From Bacillota bacterium (GTDB taxonomy: Bacteria > Bacillota > Dethiobacteria > DTU022 > UBA8154): a stretch of DNA of 58,383 nt. The stretch lies in assembly GCA_012798755.1 (NCBI GenBank), contig JAAZMP010000102.1:1-58383 (forward strand). The letters are read 5' to 3'. Positions 41,055 to 58,224 of the stretch are shown in pieces. The notes beneath the pieces are model-generated. The model was not told the DNA's origin and did no database searches. It saw only the letters and a list, made by a program, of their open reading frames with translations. The stretch's first letter is position 1; every line of letters starts with the position of its first letter. The translations under genes were made by a program, and so were the position numbers.

Positions 41055-43013
41055 TTAGTCGCCGTCCTTTTCCCCTGCTCGATCCAAGAGATAGTCAACA
41101 CTGGGAAATTTATGTTTTTTATGTGGAAATGCCAAAGCTTCGGCAAAACGAATCTGGAAATCGGGCTCACTTGCCATTTCCACGAATCCAACTTTTTGGG
41201 CTACCCCTTCCGCTTCCCTGCGTTTTTTCATGCTCAAAAGCGCCAGTTTAGCCCCGTCACCGGCCGCATTGCCCACCGCCTGAACCTTTTTCAAACTGCA
41301 GTCAGGAACCATCCCGATCACCATGGCACTTTCTTTGTTGATATAGCTGCCAAAGGCCCCGGCAAAAACAATCCTGTCCGGGCTGGTCGCACCAAATTTT
41401 TCCAACAAATATTCTGCGCCGCAGTAAAGGGCCGCTTTGGCCAGCTGGATAGCACGAATATCTTCCTGGGTAATTACAATATCTTTACCAATGGAAGTGT
41501 CTTCTGCATAGCAAAGCACATATTCCATTTTCCCATCAGCATCACGGCGTACCCTGGGGCTGGCAGATTGTTGGTTGAAACGCCCGGTGCTGTCTATAAT
41601 TCCCGTTTTAAACAGTTCGGCACAAACATCGATTATTGCCGAACCGCAGATCCCTTTGGCCAGAGGTTCATCACCTTTTTTAAACCAGCCCTCCCGGCCA
41701 ATAATTTTTATTCGGGGGTCCTTAGTCTCCGGATCTATTATTACCTTTTCAATAGCACCAAAAGCTGCCCTCATGCCATATTTGATCTGTGCACCTTCCA
41801 GCGCCGGCCCGGTTGCACAGGATGTGGAAAATAATTTTTCCCTATCACCAAATACTATTTCCCCGTTGGTACCAATATCAACTATAAGCATCTTTTCATC
41901 CTGCCGGTACGGCTCCTCGGCAATGAGAACAGCAACATTATCTGCGCCGACAAAACCGGCCTCTAAAGGAAGCCAGTGCACATAAGAACCACTGTTGATT
42001 TTTAAACCAAGATCCCTGGCTTTAAAATTCATGCCGCCTTTGAACGCCGGAGCGAAAGGAGAACGCCCCACATATTGCGGATCGATCGAAAGCATGATAT
42101 GGTGCATAACCGTATTGCCTACCAACACCAGATCGACTATCTCCGCGGTAACCAATCCAGCCTCTCCTGCCAGCGCTTCCAAAAGCGAATTGATCGCCTC
42201 CACAATGGCCCTGTGTAACTTAGCCAATCCTTCTTCATTCATTATAGAATAAGTAATACGGGAAAGAATATCTTCACCGTAAACGATCTGTGGATTCATC
42301 ATGGACTTTTTAGCAACAGTTTCCCCGGTTCTCAGGTTACACAAATAGGCTGCCAGCGTAGTACTGCCTACATCAATAGCAACCCCCCAGATGTTTTCCG
42401 CAAACCCCGGGGAAACCTTAATGATTTCTTTTTCGTTCCAGATACTAACGGTCACTTTCCAGCCCGAGCGGCGGATTATCCCGGAAAGATCCTTTACCAC
42501 GGGGTAATCTAAAATAATATCCCTTTGAAAACCGTATTTTTGCTCCAGCATATCTTTGATGCGTCTGAAGTCATCTCTTTGATCTTTCAGCGTAGCAGGA
42601 CACATTTCAAGATAGTAATTTTTTACAACCGGGTCGATAAAAAATTCTCTTTCCCTTCCCGTTTCCAAGATTATTTGTTTGCCGGCGCGGGATTCTTCGG
42701 GGACGTAAACCATAACATCTCCCTTTATGGCTGCACAGCAGGCCAGGCGGTAATTTTTACTTATTTCCTTTTCCCCGAGTTTTTCTATTTCTTCTTCAGT
42801 AGCCGGTGAAAGATGATCTGTCTTCGATTCGATACCAAGTCTTTGGAAACTGCCTTCCTCAACCCTTACCTTACACTTGCCGCATATTCCCGCCCCCCCG
42901 CAGGGCGATTCAATATCTGCACCAAATTCCCTGGCTGCAGCAAGAAGGGTCATTTCCGTATCTACAATCCCGCGCCGTCCCGAAGGTTGAAAGATGACGG
43001 TGCACTTCATCAT
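41055..43013 (-). CDS. RACo-like corrinoid protein reductive activator (2Fe-2S ferredoxin + ASKHA domain)
   Basis: A 652-residue protein with a plant-type 2Fe-2S domain at the N-terminus (C38, C44, C47 in SPCGGAGICGKCKV, last ligand C92 or C93), a linker, and from about residue 205 an ASKHA-fold ATPase domain (WGVAIDVGSTTLAAYL; LIVDIGTNGEIVFGDRE). This is the architecture of RACo, which reduces Co(II) corrinoid proteins at the cost of ATP so that they can re-enter methyl transfer, for example in the Wood-Ljungdahl pathway or O-demethylase systems. No corrinoid protein or methyltransferase gene is adjacent. Ribosome site GGGAGGAATAA; ATG at 43013 or the next codon. Confidence 0.9.
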   Translation of the reverse strand: MMKCTVIFQPSGRRGIVDTEMTLLAAAREFGADIESPCGGAGICGKCKVRVEEGSFQRLGIESKTDHLSPATEEEIEKLGEKEISKNYRLACCAAIKGDVMVYVPEESRAGKQIILETGREREFFIDPVVKNYYLEMCPATLKDQRDDFRRIKDMLEQKYGFQRDIILDYPVVKDLSGIIRRSGWKVTVSIWNEKEIIKVSPGFAENIWGVAIDVGSTTLAAYLCNLRTGETVAKKSMMNPQIVYGEDILSRITYSIMNEEGLAKLHRAIVEAINSLLEALAGEAGLVTAEIVDLVLVGNTVMHHIMLSIDPQYVGRSPFAPAFKGGMNFKARDLGLKINSGSYVHWLPLEAGFVGADNVAVLIAEEPYRQDEKMLIVDIGTNGEIVFGDREKLFSTSCATGPALEGAQIKYGMRAAFGAIEKVIIDPETKDPRIKIIGREGWFKKGDEPLAKGICGSAIIDVCAELFKTGIIDSTGRFNQQSASPRVRRDADGKMEYVLCYAEDTSIGKDIVITQEDIRAIQLAKAALYCGAEYLLEKFGATSPDRIVFAGAFGSYINKESAMVIGMVPDCSLKKVQAVGNAAGDGAKLALLSMKKRREAEGVAQKVGFVEMASEPDFQIRFAEALAFPHKKHKFPSVDYLLDRAGEKDGD

Positions 43014-51877: not shown

Positions 51878-53809
51878 CTAAAGCCGGTAAGCACAGTCAA
51901 AGCCTTCATGAATAGCCTCCAATATTTTACGTACTTCCTTGCAATCGCCAACAGAAAAAACTTCATATTTTCCGCTAAGCCGGGCAAATAAATCATTGTT
52001 GGATTCATAACCGGCAGCAATAACTACCGTATCAATGTTTCTAAATTCTTTTTTTTCTCCATCATGTTCGGTAATCACCGCTTCTTCTTTTATTTCTTTA
52101 AGGGTGGTTTTCGGGTAAAATTCAATGCCCTTCTTTTGCATCTCCGCCATAAGTAATATTTTGTAAAAAATGCCAATATCGGTTCCTATTTCGGCAAGCA
52201 TTTCCACCAAAATAACTTCTTTCCCCTTTTTGGCAGCAAAATATGCGGTTTCGCAACCGACAAGGCCACCGCCTACAACCAGTACTTTTTCACCAAGCTG
52301 CGTTTTTTCGGATAGGACATCTTCCGCCAAAACTACGTTTTTTTGTTCTATGCCGGGCACTTTTGGCAGAAGCGGTTTGCTGCCCGTAGCCAGAATCACC
52401 GCATCAGGGGCGACTTCTTCTACAGTTTGCAGATCAGCCTCGTGGCCGGTCATGATCTTCACAGGCAGCTTTTGTAATTGAATGCTTAAAAATTTTATTA
52501 GATCTTCTACCTCTTTTTTGCCAGGAGGCACCGCAGCTAAAGACATAGTTCCCCCCAACCTGTTTTCACGTTCGTACAGCAAAACCTCATGCCCGCGCAA
52601 GGATGCGCAACGTGCTGCCTCCATCCCTGCAGGCCCGCCTCCTATAACCATAACTTTTTTCTTTACAACCGCTTCTTTCATTTCGTAATCGCCTTCGTAC
52701 CCACAAAGCGGATTGCCCAGGCAAGTGATATCCTTTTGCATGAGCAGGCGATCCATGCAGCCCTGGTTACAACTTATACATTTTCTAATCTCGTCTATTT
52801 TACCTTCTTTAACCTTGTGGGGAAATTCCGGATCAGCCAGCAAGGGCCGTCCCAGGGCCACGAGATCAGCTTTACCTTCCGTTAGCACTTTTTCCGCTTC
52901 AAAAGGATCTTTTATGCGGCCGGTTGCCGCTATGGGAACACGTCCTTCCAGAGCCTTTTTTATTTCCCAGGCATCTTCCACATGGAAGTTTTGGGGAAGG
53001 AGCATGGTAGGAACCATCATGGGGCCGGATTCATAGATGGCCCCGGAAACACTTAGCAGCTCTATGCCTTCTTCTATAAGCCGCCGGGCAAAAATTATGG
53101 ATTCTGGAAGATCCAGTCCACCTTCTACAAATTCCCGGGCACTTATGCGGCAGGATACAGGATAATCTTTTCCCACAGCTTTTCTTATTTTAGAAAGAAC
53201 CATCAAGGGAAAGCGCATCCTATTTTCCAGGCTGCCGCCGTATTCATCTTCTCTTTTGTTGGTATATGGGGATAAAAATTGGTTTATGAGTTGTCCATGG
53301 CCGGCTAAAAGCTCCACTCCGTCAAAACCGGCTTCTTTGGCCCGCCTCGCTGCCTGACCAAAAGCATCCGCCAACTGTGCTATTTCAGTCTCCGTTAGTT
53401 GGCGGGGCGTTTCCTGCATCGTCATACAGGGTATAGGTGAAGGGGCCACGATATCCTGGCCGGTTAAAACAGAAAGGGTCTGGCGACCGGCATGAAAAAG
53501 CTGTATAAATACTTTAGCTCCTTCTTCATGAATCTCATCGGCCAGCTCTTTTAATCCCGGAAGAAGCTCGTCATTATGTATCCCCAATTGGTGCGGGCAT
53601 TCTTTTCCGTTTTGGGAAACATAGGCTCCTTCCGTAATAATAAGACCCGTCCCCCCCTTGGCCCTCGCCTTAAAAAAAGCCTTCAGGCGTTCGGTAACCT
53701 CGCCTTCGGGGGTACAAAAGTTTGTCCCTATAGCAGCCATCATGATCCTGTTTTCCACCTGCAGTTGTCCGATTTGTAAAGGTTTGAACAAATTTTCAAA
53801 AGAGTCCAC
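51878..53809 (-). CDS. NADH:flavin oxidoreductase (old-yellow-enzyme/4Fe-4S/FAD type)
   Basis: A 643-residue three-part enzyme like 2,4-dienoyl-CoA reductase, bile-acid BaiCD and trimethylamine dehydrogenase. The FMN TIM barrel fills about residues 1-350 (GHGQLINQFLSPYTNKREDEYGG). A 4Fe-4S cluster motif follows, CISCNQGCMDR then CLGNP about 9 residues on. The FAD and NAD(P) domains follow (VMVIGGGPAGMEAAR; VLVVGGGLVGCETAYF). It reduces an activated C=C bond in the cytosol, using NAD(P)H through FAD, Fe-S and FMN. The GTG at 53809 was chosen because AGGAGGATTTTTAGCA lies upstream; the open frame extends 36 codons further without a ribosome site. Confidence 0.92.
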   Translation of the reverse strand: MDSFENLFKPLQIGQLQVENRIMMAAIGTNFCTPEGEVTERLKAFFKARAKGGTGLIITEGAYVSQNGKECPHQLGIHNDELLPGLKELADEIHEEGAKVFIQLFHAGRQTLSVLTGQDIVAPSPIPCMTMQETPRQLTETEIAQLADAFGQAARRAKEAGFDGVELLAGHGQLINQFLSPYTNKREDEYGGSLENRMRFPLMVLSKIRKAVGKDYPVSCRISAREFVEGGLDLPESIIFARRLIEEGIELLSVSGAIYESGPMMVPTMLLPQNFHVEDAWEIKKALEGRVPIAATGRIKDPFEAEKVLTEGKADLVALGRPLLADPEFPHKVKEGKIDEIRKCISCNQGCMDRLLMQKDITCLGNPLCGYEGDYEMKEAVVKKKVMVIGGGPAGMEAARCASLRGHEVLLYERENRLGGTMSLAAVPPGKKEVEDLIKFLSIQLQKLPVKIMTGHEADLQTVEEVAPDAVILATGSKPLLPKVPGIEQKNVVLAEDVLSEKTQLGEKVLVVGGGLVGCETAYFAAKKGKEVILVEMLAEIGTDIGIFYKILLMAEMQKKGIEFYPKTTLKEIKEEAVITEHDGEKKEFRNIDTVVIAAGYESNNDLFARLSGKYEVFSVGDCKEVRKILEAIHEGFDCAYRL

Positions 53810-53948
53810 TGCTAAAAATCCTCCTTCCAATCTAGGAAAGCAAATATTTGCAACGTCTTTATCTTTTTTCAACGCCAAGGCACTTATTACCTTCCGAAAT
53901 TGACATTTATTCGACACTGTTTACAGATCAGATTTAGTCAAAGCTCAA

Positions 53949-53978
53949 TTGCCAAAGCCCGAAATTTCATAGTATAAT
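53949..53978 (+). promoter_or_regulatory. Promoter and long leader of the DHA2-GRxGG-MetE-DUF1786 group
   Basis: TTGCCA (53949-53954), an 18-bp spacer and TATAAT (53973-53978). It would give a leader of about 150 bases before the exporter start at 54136. No known riboswitch was recognised in that leader. The remaining spacer (53810-53948) shows nothing else. Confidence 0.65.
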
Positions 53979-54135
53979 ACCGATAAACAATAAAATATTT
54001 TTCGCCGGAAATTGAAGAGCCCATAAAATGACAGAGTAACCTTTAAAAGTTTTCGGGATATTTTAAACATTTTTTTATCAACGCGGAAAAAGTTTTGGTT
54101 TGTCGAAACTGCTCGGGAAGGAGCGAATAAATGAT

Positions 54136-55548
54136 ATGCCTTCACAGTCAACGGAAACATCCTCTGTTACCGCACGGCGATATATGGTACTTGCCGCTGT
54201 CATGCTAGGGGGAATCATGGGCCCCATAGATGCCAGCATCGTCAATGTCATTTTGCCGACTATTACCGGATTTTTTGGCACTTCAATTGCAACGGCGCAG
54301 TGGGTTCCGCTGATTTATCTGCTCACGATCAGCAGCCTACTTCTGTTTTATGGCCGCCTGGGAGATATTTTTGGCTATAAACGGGTCTATCTTGCGGGGC
54401 TGGCTTGTTTTACCATTACCTCCGGCCTCTGCGGTTTATCACCTACTATCCACTGGCTGATAGTTTTTCGTGCCGTGCAAGGAATTGGCGCCGGTATGAT
54501 GATGTCTGTTCCTTTTGCCATCCTCACCGCTGTCTTTAAACCACAGGAACGTGGCCGAGCTTTGGGCATCAACGCGATTAGCATCTCCGCGGGGTTGGCT
54601 CTTGGCCCCACCCTGGGTGGGTTGCTCACTTCGTTATGGTCCTGGCGCCTGATTTTTTTGATCAATATTCCTATCGGCATTGTCGCATTACTTTGGGCTA
54701 TAAAGATCATCCCCGATTTAAAAGGACAGCCGGGCCGCATTGACACTGCCGGTGCTGTATCTGCCTTTGTATGTCTTTTTTCCTTCCTTTTTTTTATCAA
54801 CCAGGTGCAAACAGCGGGGATGGGGTTTATTACCGTTACGGCCATAACAATAGCTGTTATAGCCGGGATCTGTTTCTTTTATATCGAAACACATGCACCT
54901 CAACCTATGGTTAACCTGGCACTTTTTAAAAACCGCACTTTTGCACTGGGTACTATCAGTTCCCTGCTTAATTTCTCTTCACAGTACATTATGGTTTTCC
55001 TTACACCCTTTTACCTACAACGGGTTATCCATTTTTCCCCGGATAAAATCGGTTTCCTTATGACTTGCTTTCCCCTGGCAGTGATGGCAGTAGCACCATT
55101 TAGCGGTGCTGCCTCTGATCGCTTGGGCACTAGGGGATTGGCCGTTGCTGGGGCCTCACTGTGCGCTGCAGCCCTAGTGACAATGTCCTTTTTACCTGTA
55201 GAAGCAACCCCCTTGACCGTGGGATGGCGCCTGGCTTTTTTTGGCCTGGGTACCGGAATATTTCAATCCCCTAACAACAGCGCCGTTATGGGCAGCTCGC
55301 CTCGCCCCTATTTGGGAGTTGCTTCCGGCATTTTAAGCACAGCGCGAAATACGGGAATGGCCGTAGGAATTGCCGCAGCCGGACTAATTCTTTATTCCCT
55401 GGTACCGCCGGCCAGCATGGCCTTGGATTACCTAAGCGGAGCGGATGCAGTATCCTTCCTTGGTGGCCTGAAATACGCCTACCTTTTCGGGGCCCTGCTC
55501 TCCGTTTTGGCTGCAATATTTTCCTTTGTGCCTGATTTTAACCATTAA
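54136..55548 (+). CDS. MFS drug-exporter-like transporter, DHA2 family
   Basis: A 470-residue integral membrane protein of the major facilitator superfamily. The first helix ends in GPIDASIVNVILPTI, matching the LDxTIVNVALP motif of DHA2 exporters (EmrB, QacA); GRLGDIFGYKRV is MFS motif A; GLALGPTLGGLL is motif C. About 14 hydrophobic segments can be counted by eye. It exports a small molecule in exchange for protons; the substrate is not known. The ATG at 54136 has GGAAGGAG about 12 bp upstream. It is the first gene of a close-packed group of four. Confidence 0.88.
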   Translation: MPSQSTETSSVTARRYMVLAAVMLGGIMGPIDASIVNVILPTITGFFGTSIATAQWVPLIYLLTISSLLLFYGRLGDIFGYKRVYLAGLACFTITSGLCGLSPTIHWLIVFRAVQGIGAGMMMSVPFAILTAVFKPQERGRALGINAISISAGLALGPTLGGLLTSLWSWRLIFLINIPIGIVALLWAIKIIPDLKGQPGRIDTAGAVSAFVCLFSFLFFINQVQTAGMGFITVTAITIAVIAGICFFYIETHAPQPMVNLALFKNRTFALGTISSLLNFSSQYIMVFLTPFYLQRVIHFSPDKIGFLMTCFPLAVMAVAPFSGAASDRLGTRGLAVAGASLCAAALVTMSFLPVEATPLTVGWRLAFFGLGTGIFQSPNNSAVMGSSPRPYLGVASGILSTARNTGMAVGIAAAGLILYSLVPPASMALDYLSGADAVSFLGGLKYAYLFGALLSVLAAIFSFVPDFNH

Positions 55549-55562
55549 AAAGGAGAAAGCTG

Positions 55563-56072
55563 ATGGGTAAAGTTTTTGGCAGAATTGGAGGATCATTGGG
55601 AGGGTATTCCCTGGAATGCATTCTTGAAGAAGATCGTATTCATGGCCGTTTGGGAGGAGCGGTTGTGGGAAATGACATCAACCTTTGGCTTTCACCGGAA
55701 AAGGATCACTTGTGGGGCCGGATCGGTGGAGATGTTTTAGGCAAAGATTTGAACATTGCGTTTGAAAAAAACCGTGCCTATGGCCGTCTGGGCGGCAAAA
55801 CAATCGGAAATGACATTTCGCTGAAAGAAACCGCGGGGATAATCATAGGAAGAGTAGGGGGCCCCGTGCTGGGATTTAGCTGCCGTGTCAGGGTATCCGC
55901 TGATCTTTCGAAGCTGTCCGGTCGCCTTGGCGGATCTTTTATTGGAGCCAACGTTGACCTTACGCTTAAAGATTTCCCCCCGCTGATAGCCTCCGTAATG
56001 GCGGCTACAGTGTATAAAATCTATCAGGAACATTCTAGGAGCAAAGGGGTTGGAGCAAAAACAAATCCCTAG
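55563..56072 (+). CDS. Six-fold GR(I/L/V)GG repeat protein of unknown function
   Basis: A 169-residue protein made almost entirely of a 22-24-residue repeat. GRxGG occurs six times, at residues 6-10, 28-32, 52-56, 74-78, 96-100 and 120-124. Each is followed by a small residue, a G and a strand-like stretch such as NDINLWL, KDLNIAF or ANVDLTL. Regular spacing and alternating polar and hydrophobic residues suggest a beta-solenoid or beta-roll. The last 30 residues form one hydrophobic helix (LIASVMAATVYKIY) and a polar tail. No signal peptide. Ribosome site AAAGGAGAAAGCTG; it starts 14 bp after the exporter and 21 bp before the MetE-like gene, so they are co-transcribed. No family name is recognised and no function is proposed. 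Confidence 0.85.
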   Translation: MGKVFGRIGGSLGGYSLECILEEDRIHGRLGGAVVGNDINLWLSPEKDHLWGRIGGDVLGKDLNIAFEKNRAYGRLGGKTIGNDISLKETAGIIIGRVGGPVLGFSCRVRVSADLSKLSGRLGGSFIGANVDLTLKDFPPLIASVMAATVYKIYQEHSRSKGVGAKTNP

Positions 56073-56093
56073 CATTATAAAGGAGGAAGAACA

Positions 56094-57122
56094 ATGACTA
56101 GAATGCCGGGTAATTGTTTGACGACTGCCATGGGTATCATGCCTCATGAAAATATGGAAGAGGCGCTACAGGTTTCTTTGTCGGTGGATATAGCTTTTTG
56201 GCCACAGCTGCCCCGGTATAGTTTTTTTGAGGACATGTATGTGCAAGTAAGTGAAAACTTCCCCGGCATCCAATTAGATCTGGAAAATAGAAAAATTGCC
56301 CTGGATACAGCAAGTTTTTACCAACAGTTGCCCGATTATGCCATGCACAGTGAAGATGAAAATACCTTTAAACTGTCCGGACAATATGCTGTAGCTTTAG
56401 ATAGTTTTTTGCAGAAGGACCTAAGCAAGTATGAGTTGATACGCGGGCAAAGTATAGGTCCGATCAGCTACGGGTTAAAAATTGCGGATGAAAATTTAAG
56501 GCCAATTATCTACAATGATGATTTACGCTTGTTTTTGTTTGACTTTATTGCACGCAAGGTAAACAGGCAGTACCAACAGCTACAAGAGGTACACCCCCGT
56601 TCCTTCGTCTGGGTTGATGAACCGGGCTTGCAGTTTTTGTTTGGTTCCTTTACCGGTTATTCCAGCGAAAGAGCACATAGGGATTTCCAAGCTTTCCTGG
56701 ATATGCTGGACGGGCCCCGCAGCGTGCATCTCTGCGGCAACCCTGACTGGTCTTTTTTGTTAAGTGGACTTGATCTCGATATTCTATCCGTGGATATTTT
56801 CGGCAATGGGCATATTTTTACCCGTTATGTTGATGAAATTAAAGCTTTCCTAAAAAGGGGTGCCATTATTTCCTGGGGAATTGTGCCCACCCTGACTGAA
56901 GAGTTGGATACTGCCGGCGTTCGTTATCTAACGGCTAAATTAGAGGAATATTGGCGTTATCTGGATTCCAGGGGTGTTGATATGGAAATGATTTTGGATC
57001 GGGCCTGGCTCGCACCAGCACGCTGTTGTTTGATTAACACCGATGGCACCAAGACGGTGGAAGAAGCCTTCCGATCTCTTGACAAAATATCCGCTTTACT
57101 GCGGCAAAAATACAACCTGTAA
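56094..57122 (+). CDS. MetE-like zinc methyltransferase, catalytic domain only
   Basis: A 342-residue protein of the UROD/MetE superfamily, matching only the C-terminal catalytic domain of cobalamin-independent methionine synthase; the folate-binding N-terminal domain of full MetE (about 750 residues) is missing. It has PQLPR near residue 37, VDEPGLQF at 174-181, HLCGNPDW at 212-219 with the zinc ligands H212 and C214, and APARCC at 307-312 with the third thiolate. Core-MetE proteins in archaea and some anaerobes take the methyl group from a methyl-corrinoid protein. Whether it methylates homocysteine is not proven by sequence. Ribosome site AAAGGAGGAAGAAC. Confidence 0.85.
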   Translation: MTRMPGNCLTTAMGIMPHENMEEALQVSLSVDIAFWPQLPRYSFFEDMYVQVSENFPGIQLDLENRKIALDTASFYQQLPDYAMHSEDENTFKLSGQYAVALDSFLQKDLSKYELIRGQSIGPISYGLKIADENLRPIIYNDDLRLFLFDFIARKVNRQYQQLQEVHPRSFVWVDEPGLQFLFGSFTGYSSERAHRDFQAFLDMLDGPRSVHLCGNPDWSFLLSGLDLDILSVDIFGNGHIFTRYVDEIKAFLKRGAIISWGIVPTLTEELDTAGVRYLTAKLEEYWRYLDSRGVDMEMILDRAWLAPARCCLINTDGTKTVEEAFRSLDKISALLRQKYNL

Positions 57123-57186
57123 TTATTATGAACGCATAATTCATATGGAATTGAACAAGTTCATTAGAAAAAGGGGGCAAAAATCA

Positions 57187-58224
57187 TTGCAGGACAAACA
57201 ACCCAGGAAAATACTGGCTATTGATATTGGAGGCGGTACCCAGGACATAGTAATCTATGAAGAAGGAGAGAGCCCGGAAAATTTTATACAAATGGTACTT
57301 CCTTCCCCTACCGCTATTATTGCCGAGAAAATAAAAAAAGTAACTGCAAAACAAAAAGGATTGCATCTTACAGGCACAATCATGGGCGGCGGCAGATCTG
57401 TTAGGGCCATATACAATCATTTGAAAGCCGGCCTTCCGGTAACCGCCACGGAAGAAGCTGCCAAAACCATAGACGATGACCTGGAAAAAGTAGAAAAAGA
57501 CGGCATTCAAATAAAAGGGTCACCCCCCCAAGGATACAAAGTTATAGAAACAAAGGATATCGATCTGGAAATGTATAGAAAAACCCTGGCTTTGTACCAT
57601 GTCGATCTGCCTCAGGAATTGGCTGTTGCCATTCAGGACCATGGTCATTCACCCGGGGTAAGCGATCGTCATTTTCGCTTTCAGCACTGGAAAAAATTTA
57701 TTCAAGATGGAGGAAATATTACCGATCTTGCCTATGTAAATCCCCCGGAATATCTGACCAGAATGAAAGCTCTTAAAAAAACTGTTCCCCATGCTCTGAT
57801 CATGGACACCTGTGCAGCTGCTATTTGGGGATCTTTTGAAGATGAGTTGGTCCAAAGCAAACAAAAAGAAAACATCGTGCTTGTTAATGTCGGGAACCAA
57901 CATACTTTCGCCGTCCTAATAAAGGGGGAAAGGATCTATGGTTTATTTGAACATCACACACGCTTATTAAATCCCGAAAAGCTTTTAATGTTGATTGAAA
58001 AACTACGCCGCAAAGAACTGACACATGAGGAAGTGTTCGAAGATCGGGGGCACGGCTGTTATATAGCGCCGGATACGCCGGAGGGTTTTGGGTTTACGGG
58101 GATTACAGGCCCCAGGCGCTCCTTGGCACAAAAACTCGGCTACCACATGATTAACCCGCACGGCAACATGATGGTGACAGGTTGTTTCGGGCTGATCGAG
58201 GCAGCTAAAACCAGAACAAGATAA
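57187..58224 (+). CDS. DUF1786 protein, ASKHA-fold putative ATPase
   Basis: A 345-residue protein of the DUF1786/COG4012 family. The N-terminal AIDIGGGTQDIVIY (residues 11-24) is a phosphate-1 loop of the actin/Hsp70/sugar-kinase fold, and VLVNVGNQHTFAVLIKG is its phosphate-2 loop, so ATP binding is likely. The family is sometimes labelled as linked to pyruvate formate-lyase activation, with no experimental support known to me. Start: TTG at 57187, nine bases after AAAAAGGGGG; an ATG at 57145 lacks a ribosome site. It lies 64 bp after the MetE-like gene. By analogy to RACo and other ASKHA activators, it could reactivate a partner enzyme. Confidence 0.83.
   Translation: MQDKQPRKILAIDIGGGTQDIVIYEEGESPENFIQMVLPSPTAIIAEKIKKVTAKQKGLHLTGTIMGGGRSVRAIYNHLKAGLPVTATEEAAKTIDDDLEKVEKDGIQIKGSPPQGYKVIETKDIDLEMYRKTLALYHVDLPQELAVAIQDHGHSPGVSDRHFRFQHWKKFIQDGGNITDLAYVNPPEYLTRMKALKKTVPHALIMDTCAAAIWGSFEDELVQSKQKENIVLVNVGNQHTFAVLIKGERIYGLFEHHTRLLNPEKLLMLIEKLRRKELTHEEVFEDRGHGCYIAPDTPEGFGFTGITGPRRSLAQKLGYHMINPHGNMMVTGCFGLIEAAKTRTR

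Follow-up and report, generated by a model that had tools for sequence, protein, structure and literature searches.

The right-hand end of contig JAAZMP010000102.1 from a genome of the class Dethiobacteria (Bacillota; assembly GCA_012798755.1) carries four genes in series on the plus strand, which encode a DHA2-family exporter, a protein with GRxGG repeats, a MetE-like protein and a DUF1786 protein of the ASKHA (acetate and sugar kinase/Hsp70/actin) type. The window referred to below is the whole of this contig (C36; 58,383 bases), one of 225 in a 2.33 Mb genome. Judged by sequence, the MetE-like proteins form a subfamily of their own among the zinc methyltransferases, akin to the core methionine synthases, widespread and apparently undescribed. 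We put the probability at about 0.5 that the window protein is a zinc-dependent, probably corrinoid-linked, thiol methyltransferase that has been recruited to nitrosative-stress physiology. Sequence features that point this way are an intact zinc site, the absence of a folate domain, the loss of the residue equivalent to Ser433 of MetE, clustering with stress genes, and an operator of the CRP/HcpR type in many species. The run itself resembles an operon of four genes put together locally, and is not a conserved module.

Zinc site and substrate site of the MetE-like family

How closely can the protein be tied to MetE? The gene is real: its orthologues within the family share 53-79% identity, and the lengths of orthologues are about 338-392 amino acids. 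The protein has no Pfam match at E<=1 and no match in the PDB by sequence or profile search, so its kinship with MetE is traced through motifs and weak matches to NCBIfam methionine-synthase models, for which a wider alignment gave best E-values of 6.7e-7 (paralogue group) and 0.026 (one orthologue). A single-sequence AlphaFold model was unreliable, with a predicted local distance difference test (pLDDT) score of 42.

The preliminary description of the window had recognised a MetE-related zinc protein that lacks a folate domain, and this holds: the protein consists of a single domain, and its zinc site is intact throughout the family. In the numbering of E. coli MetE, the zinc ligands are H641, C643, E/D665 and C726. 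The equivalents of the first three, H212, C214 and D234, are present in all 34 orthologues. Automatic alignment put the final ligand at C312, which is Cys in 30 of the 34 proteins and Asn in four; the neighbouring C311 is invariant (34/34) and is read as the final ligand because the RCCL motif of the family lined up with DCGL of MetE. The conservation of H, C, D and C311 was also checked with a relative from Desulfosarcina included, and was kept.

It is at the substrate site that the family departs from MetE. The position of Ser433, which in MetE contacts the carboxylate of homocysteine, is occupied by Ile15 in the window protein and by Ile in 34/34 orthologues, versus Ser in 21/21 MesB-like paralogues. 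By this residue, the earlier reading of the protein as a core-MetE methionine synthase has become doubtful. The position of Asp599, the amino-group ligand, corresponds to D175 and is Asp in all 34. In an unrooted tree of 55 proteins with long branches, the 34 orthologues were separated from the 21 paralogues with 100/100 support. Identity between the orthologues and the MesB-like paralogues of related genomes is 22-27%, a figure distinct from identity to characterised MesB; the criterion of Price et al. for MesB is at least about 29% identity/130 bits to a characterised member.

The loss of the substrate residue, and a second cysteine (C312) next to C311 in 30 of the 34 orthologues, might also mean that catalysis has been lost, and that the protein serves as a zinc-thiolate sensor of nitric oxide (NO) or as a metal- or thiol-binding protein. 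Zinc thiolates react with NO. We consider such a role improbable, since strict conservation extends over all the zinc ligands, the Asp599 equivalent and much of the domain, as would be expected of an enzyme.

Comparison with methionine synthases

MesB, or core-MetE (Dehalococcoides mccartyi cbdbA481; Price et al. 2021), and the MetE-like family have in common a single domain of the MetE C-terminal type of ~340 amino acids, the lack of a folate domain, and an H-x-C ... D ... C zinc pattern with similar spacing; both organisms have a corrinoid iron-sulphur protein (CoFeSP). The MetE-like family differs in having Ile at the Ser433 position and an extra Cys after the last ligand. Gene context also sets the two apart, with methionine or Wood-Ljungdahl genes around MesB and a nitrosative-stress setting for the MetE-like family. 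MesD/MesX, MesA, MesC and split MetE belong to the same superfamily and use the same zinc chemistry, and no close similarity between them and the MetE-like protein was detected. MesD works with DUF1852 in aerobes, while MesA and MesC are archaeal (PMC7857596).

Could the window protein instead be a standard methionine synthase of the MesB type, one that is induced by nitrosative stress once corrinoid enzymes or the other methionine synthases fail, and that carries Ile without any change of substrate? Such an enzyme, tolerant of NO or N2O, is the main competitor of a role in thiol methylation. Nitrous oxide (N2O) is what NO reductases make, and the hybrid cluster protein (Hcp) has been proposed to have this activity. 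N2O is reported to inactivate cobalamin-dependent methionine synthase (PMC13059711). The conserved zinc ligands and Asp599 equivalent would suit such a methionine synthase, and HCDC is a zinc pattern of characterised MesB (PMC7857596, PMC7005905). Yet Ser433 is mostly conserved in MesB (PMC7857596) and has been lost from every orthologue here. Methionine genes were not among the recurrent neighbours seen for the MetE-like family. Moreover, the genome already holds a Ser-bearing, MesB-like paralogue in addition to the window copy, on contig C225 (L041 8753-9850). This paralogue lies in a conserved run with panB, panC, a panD-like gene, M42-type peptidases and a citramalate synthase-like gene (names given by sequence inspection), and is a good candidate for the housekeeping MesB. 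On balance, we regard a stress-induced methionine synthase as rather unlikely.

The MetE-like family in nitrosative-stress loci

Which genes accompany the family? Each gene of the run was searched for in 98 genomes of the class, and genes were counted as linked when within 8 kb of each other; expected rates assume uniform gene placement. Orthologues of the MetE-like protein were found in 41 genomes, DUF1786 in 31 and the repeat protein in 4. Hcp is linked to the MetE-like gene in 17 of the 41, spread over three families, against an expectation of about 0.6. These loci usually include an Rrf2 regulator, whose best specific NCBIfam models, RirA and NsrR, both score below cut-off. A DUF438-hemerythrin-PAS protein, a cupin or DUF1638 is often present as well.

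Outside the class, the MetE-like gene meets Hcp in four genomes (G143, G253, G162 and G130), for example in the orders Crp/Fnr - ferredoxin - Hcp - MetE-like (G253) and Crp/Fnr - Hcp - MetE-like (G162). Elsewhere it is found with NrfHA (G185, G182) or with a rubrerythrin-RIC-hemerythrin group (G248). The association extends to another phylum. A relative with 44% identity (WP_155326286.1, annotated 'hypothetical protein') is encoded on the mobilizable plasmid Do28_1 of Desulfosarcina ovata (L239 7989-9017), where norR, a NapC/NirT cytochrome, DUF1858, FprA and hcp all lie within 8 kb.

These neighbours, namely hcp, ferredoxin, nrfHA, hemerythrin proteins and a Crp/Fnr or Rrf2 regulator, are those of the Hcp/NsrR/HcpR regulons (Rodionov et al. 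2005). The regulons and the relatives of the MetE-like gene also have an identical CRP-like operator in common. In a scan from 200 bases upstream to 60 bases inside the annotated start, allowing <=1 mismatch, TGTGA-N6-TCACA was found at 17 of 38 MetE-like relatives, compared with 9 of the 296 other genes on those stretches; when the half-sites were permuted, there was at most 1 match. Perfect or near-perfect palindromes occur in L270, L271, L272, L274 and 13 others, often ~60 bases before the annotated start, and L276 (G130) has a perfect site of the HcpR2 type, GTAACaaatGTTAC. TGTGA-N6-TCACA is the HcpR site of Desulfovibrio (PMC1274295).

Several points weigh against placing the window protein in nitrosative-stress physiology. 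The same motif is also a generic CRP site, so the operator does not prove control by NO. The window copy differs from the regulons described above: it has no adjacent Hcp, and TGTGA-N6-TCACA is absent upstream of it; its inclusion therefore follows from its membership of the family. Many relatives have other neighbours, and the linkage counts, drawn from many fragmented genomes, are uncorrected for shared ancestry. The family is also far from any characterised MetE or MesB, by its lack of Pfam and PDB matches and of a reliable fold model, and the positions of Ser433 and C311 were aligned by motif conservation rather than by structure.

The genome of the window does encode Hcp, on contig C123, in a set of Rrf2, cupin and Hcp genes that has no MetE-like gene (Rrf2 and cupin named by inspection). 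In G010, the MetE-like gene is shortened and has an in-frame stop, and an Hcp remnant immediately precedes it (L040 8553-8675 and 8808). In family f6, the MetE-like gene is part of a conserved cluster with DUF2600, a polyprenyl synthetase, a pyridine nucleotide-disulphide oxidoreductase and a tetratricopeptide-repeat (TPR) protein (L124 8909-18968, L134, L135, L136).

Corrinoid setting and proposed role

The corrinoid methyl donor put forward in the preliminary description has a plausible source. The genome encodes carbon monoxide dehydrogenase/acetyl-CoA synthase (CODH/ACS), and its CoFeSP is recognised on G000:C221 from CdhD (379 bits) and another match (141 bits), together with CODH. Among genes with a corrinoid link, it is DUF1638 rather than DUF1786 that recurs beside the MetE-like family, in 8 genomes of one related order. 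DUF1638 has been tied by genetics to B12 reactivation in Phaeobacter (PMC5764234).

How might such an enzyme work? Zinc would hold the substrate as a thiol or thiolate, to be methylated by a methyl-corrinoid; in this genome the likeliest donor is CoFeSP from the Wood-Ljungdahl pathway. The acceptor would be a thiol other than homocysteine, or homocysteine bound differently. The activity would be needed when NO, nitrite or derived N2O disturbs corrinoid and Fe-S chemistry, and would act as a bypass or a repair. A more general proposal is that the entire subfamily consists of corrinoid-dependent zinc enzymes, not methionine synthases, that act in anaerobic nitrosative-stress defence and are reactivated by DUF1638 or, in some lineages, by DUF1786. 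Such enzymes may methylate or clear a thiol, for example, or rescue corrinoid methyl transfer that NO or N2O has blocked. This extension is tentative, and the odds are somewhat against it.

If the link to nitrosative stress is correct, the nitrosative-stress regulons of strict anaerobes include a methyl-transfer step that is not described in the open-access papers searched. It would tie the toxicity of NO and N2O to the corrinoid-based one-carbon metabolism at the core of acetogen energetics, and would caution against labelling every short MetE-like protein a methionine synthase. The open-access literature yielded no paper that linked hybrid cluster protein to methionine synthase in an Rrf2 setting, or hydroxylamine reductase to methionine synthase in nitrosative stress, and the word 'methionine' is absent from the main text of the regulon paper of Rodionov et al. 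2005.

DUF1786 and corrinoid reactivation

The DUF1786 protein had been described as an ASKHA protein that may reactivate corrinoid in the manner of RACo. The first part of this description stands. The window protein is a full-length member of the DUF1786 (PF08735) family and differs from it in nothing beyond its unusual neighbourhood. It has the DxGxGT phosphate-1 motif, and in an alignment of 50 sequences G29, G31, T32, Q33 and D34 are invariant and D27 is 98% conserved. A second glycine-rich strand is marked by the invariant residues N248, G250 and N251; five histidines are also invariant. Weak matches to FtsA and EutA were seen. The ASKHA-type N-terminal phosphate motif is what DUF1786 and RACo/RamA (DUF4445) have in common.

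The second part finds no support. Unlike RACo/RamA, DUF1786 has no 2Fe-2S (ferredoxin) domain in a Pfam search and no match to PF14574, PF17651 or PF00111, and none of the cysteines of the window protein (223, 305 and 347) is invariant among the 50 sequences. DUF1786 was accordingly rejected as an Fe-S reductase. A bona fide RACo, complete with 2Fe-2S, linker, middle and ASKHA domains, is encoded in the same window outside the run; a tblastn search of the examined stretch of the ACS contig (L231) revealed no second RACo.

Elsewhere, DUF1786 behaves like a free-standing gene. Its neighbours are mostly unrelated housekeeping genes, among them pyrR-pyrB-pyrC, trpE/pabC, comEC/holA and nfo, of which comEC/holA were confirmed by Pfam and the others named by sequence inspection. 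No account of DUF1786 or COG4012 was found in the open-access literature. The survey thus removes an attractive but unsupported guess about a reactivator. At three loci (L191, L196 and L203, from G148, G186 and G102), comEC and holA flank DUF1786, and a gene for a MutL-type ASKHA protein is close by.

Is the run a conserved module?

The preliminary description had joined the MetE-like, DUF1786 and repeat genes into one module, in which a core-MetE has its own ASKHA reactivator and a repeat-protein scaffold or carrier, and had suggested a co-occurrence survey. The genes do lie close together on the same strand. In the class survey, MetE-like and DUF1786 occur together in 17 of the 98 genomes, an excess over chance that is weak at best (Fisher p 0.08). 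The two genes are linked in three of these 17, the window genome, G061 and G063, which represent two genera, since G061 and G063 are of one genus. As 0.12 linked pairs would be expected, the neighbourhood is not wholly random, though it is rare. In both G061 and G063, DUF1786 adjoins DUF1638, the gene family associated with B12 reactivation. Against these points, none of 14 further Bacillota genomes that have both genes shows linkage, in a wider sample where DUF1786 was found in 249 genomes and MetE-like in 398; in four of the 14, both genes are on one large contig, 0.3-2 Mb apart. All three genes come together only in the window among the surveyed genomes. With its housekeeping neighbours elsewhere, its lack of Fe-S features and the presence of a separate RACo, DUF1786 makes such a module very unlikely; together with the repeat protein, it is most likely a chance neighbour or a lineage-specific addition.

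The repeat protein is indeed six-fold repetitive, with GR[ILV]GG motifs at residues 6, 28, 52, 74, 96 and 120 (period 22-24), compared with at most 2 motifs in 20,000 composition-preserving shuffles. It has no Pfam match and nothing in NCBIfam better than E 0.14, and its single-sequence AlphaFold model (pLDDT 41) is not trustworthy. In two of the four class genomes that have it, which belong to two genera, the repeat gene is adjacent to the MetE-like gene; in a third genome, of another genus, the two are 8.5 kb apart. The adjacent copy in G009 (L032 9523-9787) is a frameshifted remnant with stops; in G008 the repeat gene is missing and DHA2 is directly upstream of the MetE-like gene; and in G005 it is present without a MetE-like orthologue. 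The link between the two genes is only suggestive for these reasons. Distant relatives are encoded on Deinococcus plasmids, beside a cyclase-family gene or near sugar transporters. A function as carrier or scaffold of a methyltransferase is not borne out by this distribution.

Gene run at the right end of the window

The genes named in the preliminary description are all present on the plus strand (Table 1). The DHA2 exporter precedes the repeat gene by 14 nt, and the repeat gene is followed by the MetE-like gene after 21 nt. The promoter candidate 5' of the DHA2 gene probably serves the entire run, within which no convincing terminator was found. Tight spacing and strong ribosome sites had also been claimed. 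Ribosome sites are present before the repeat gene (AAGGAG) and the MetE-like gene (AAGGAGG). For DUF1786, the alternative start at ATG 57145 has no ribosome site. Translation of DUF1786 therefore probably begins at TTG 57187, preceded by AAGGGGGC, which widens the gap from 22 to 64 nt. The open reading frame of DHA2 begins at 54100, with ATG 54136, preceded by GGAAGGAG, as the likelier start. Spacing and ribosome sites fit a single transcript. Control by a riboswitch was rejected, as no Rfam match was found in the window.

Table 1. Features of the gene run and the RACo-type activase encoded elsewhere in the window
Feature	Coordinates	Strand	Basis
Sigma-70-like promoter candidate, TTGCCA-18-TATAAT	53949..53978	+	11/12 consensus match only
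DHA2-family major facilitator superfamily (MFS) exporter	54136..55548	+	TIGR00711, 240 bits (cut-off 230)
GRxGG repeat protein, 169 aa, six repeats and C-terminal stretch	55563..56072	+	
MetE-like protein, 342 aa, one domain, no folate domain	56094..57122	+	Motifs, alignment
DUF1786 ASKHA protein, phosphate-1 motif DIGGGTQD	57187..58224	+	PF08735, 300 bits (cut-off 25)
RACo/RamA-type corrinoid reductive activase, 652 aa, outside the run	41055..43013	-	PF14574 310 bits, PF17651, PF17650, PF00111

The position of DHA2 suggests one further explanation, in which the MetE-like and repeat genes assist the exporter, and DHA2 expels a small molecule once the methyltransferase has modified it. DHA2 is directly upstream both in the window and in G008, and the run has a single promoter-like site. 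Beyond these two genera, DHA2 was not seen beside the MetE-like family, and an accessory role appears about as unlikely as the three-gene module.

Only 159 nt separate the end of DUF1786 from the end of the contig, so any further genes downstream are out of sight. Between 58240 and 58383 the contig ends in a palindromic, repeat-rich tail of ACATGCAG/CTACATGTAG units, which is possibly the reason why the assembly stopped. On the other side of the run, a flavoenzyme gene similar to BaiCD/2-enoate reductase (51878-53917, minus strand) is divergent from DHA2. This flavoenzyme-DHA2 order is repeated in G008, and in G009 it is DUF1786 that adjoins the flavoenzyme gene.

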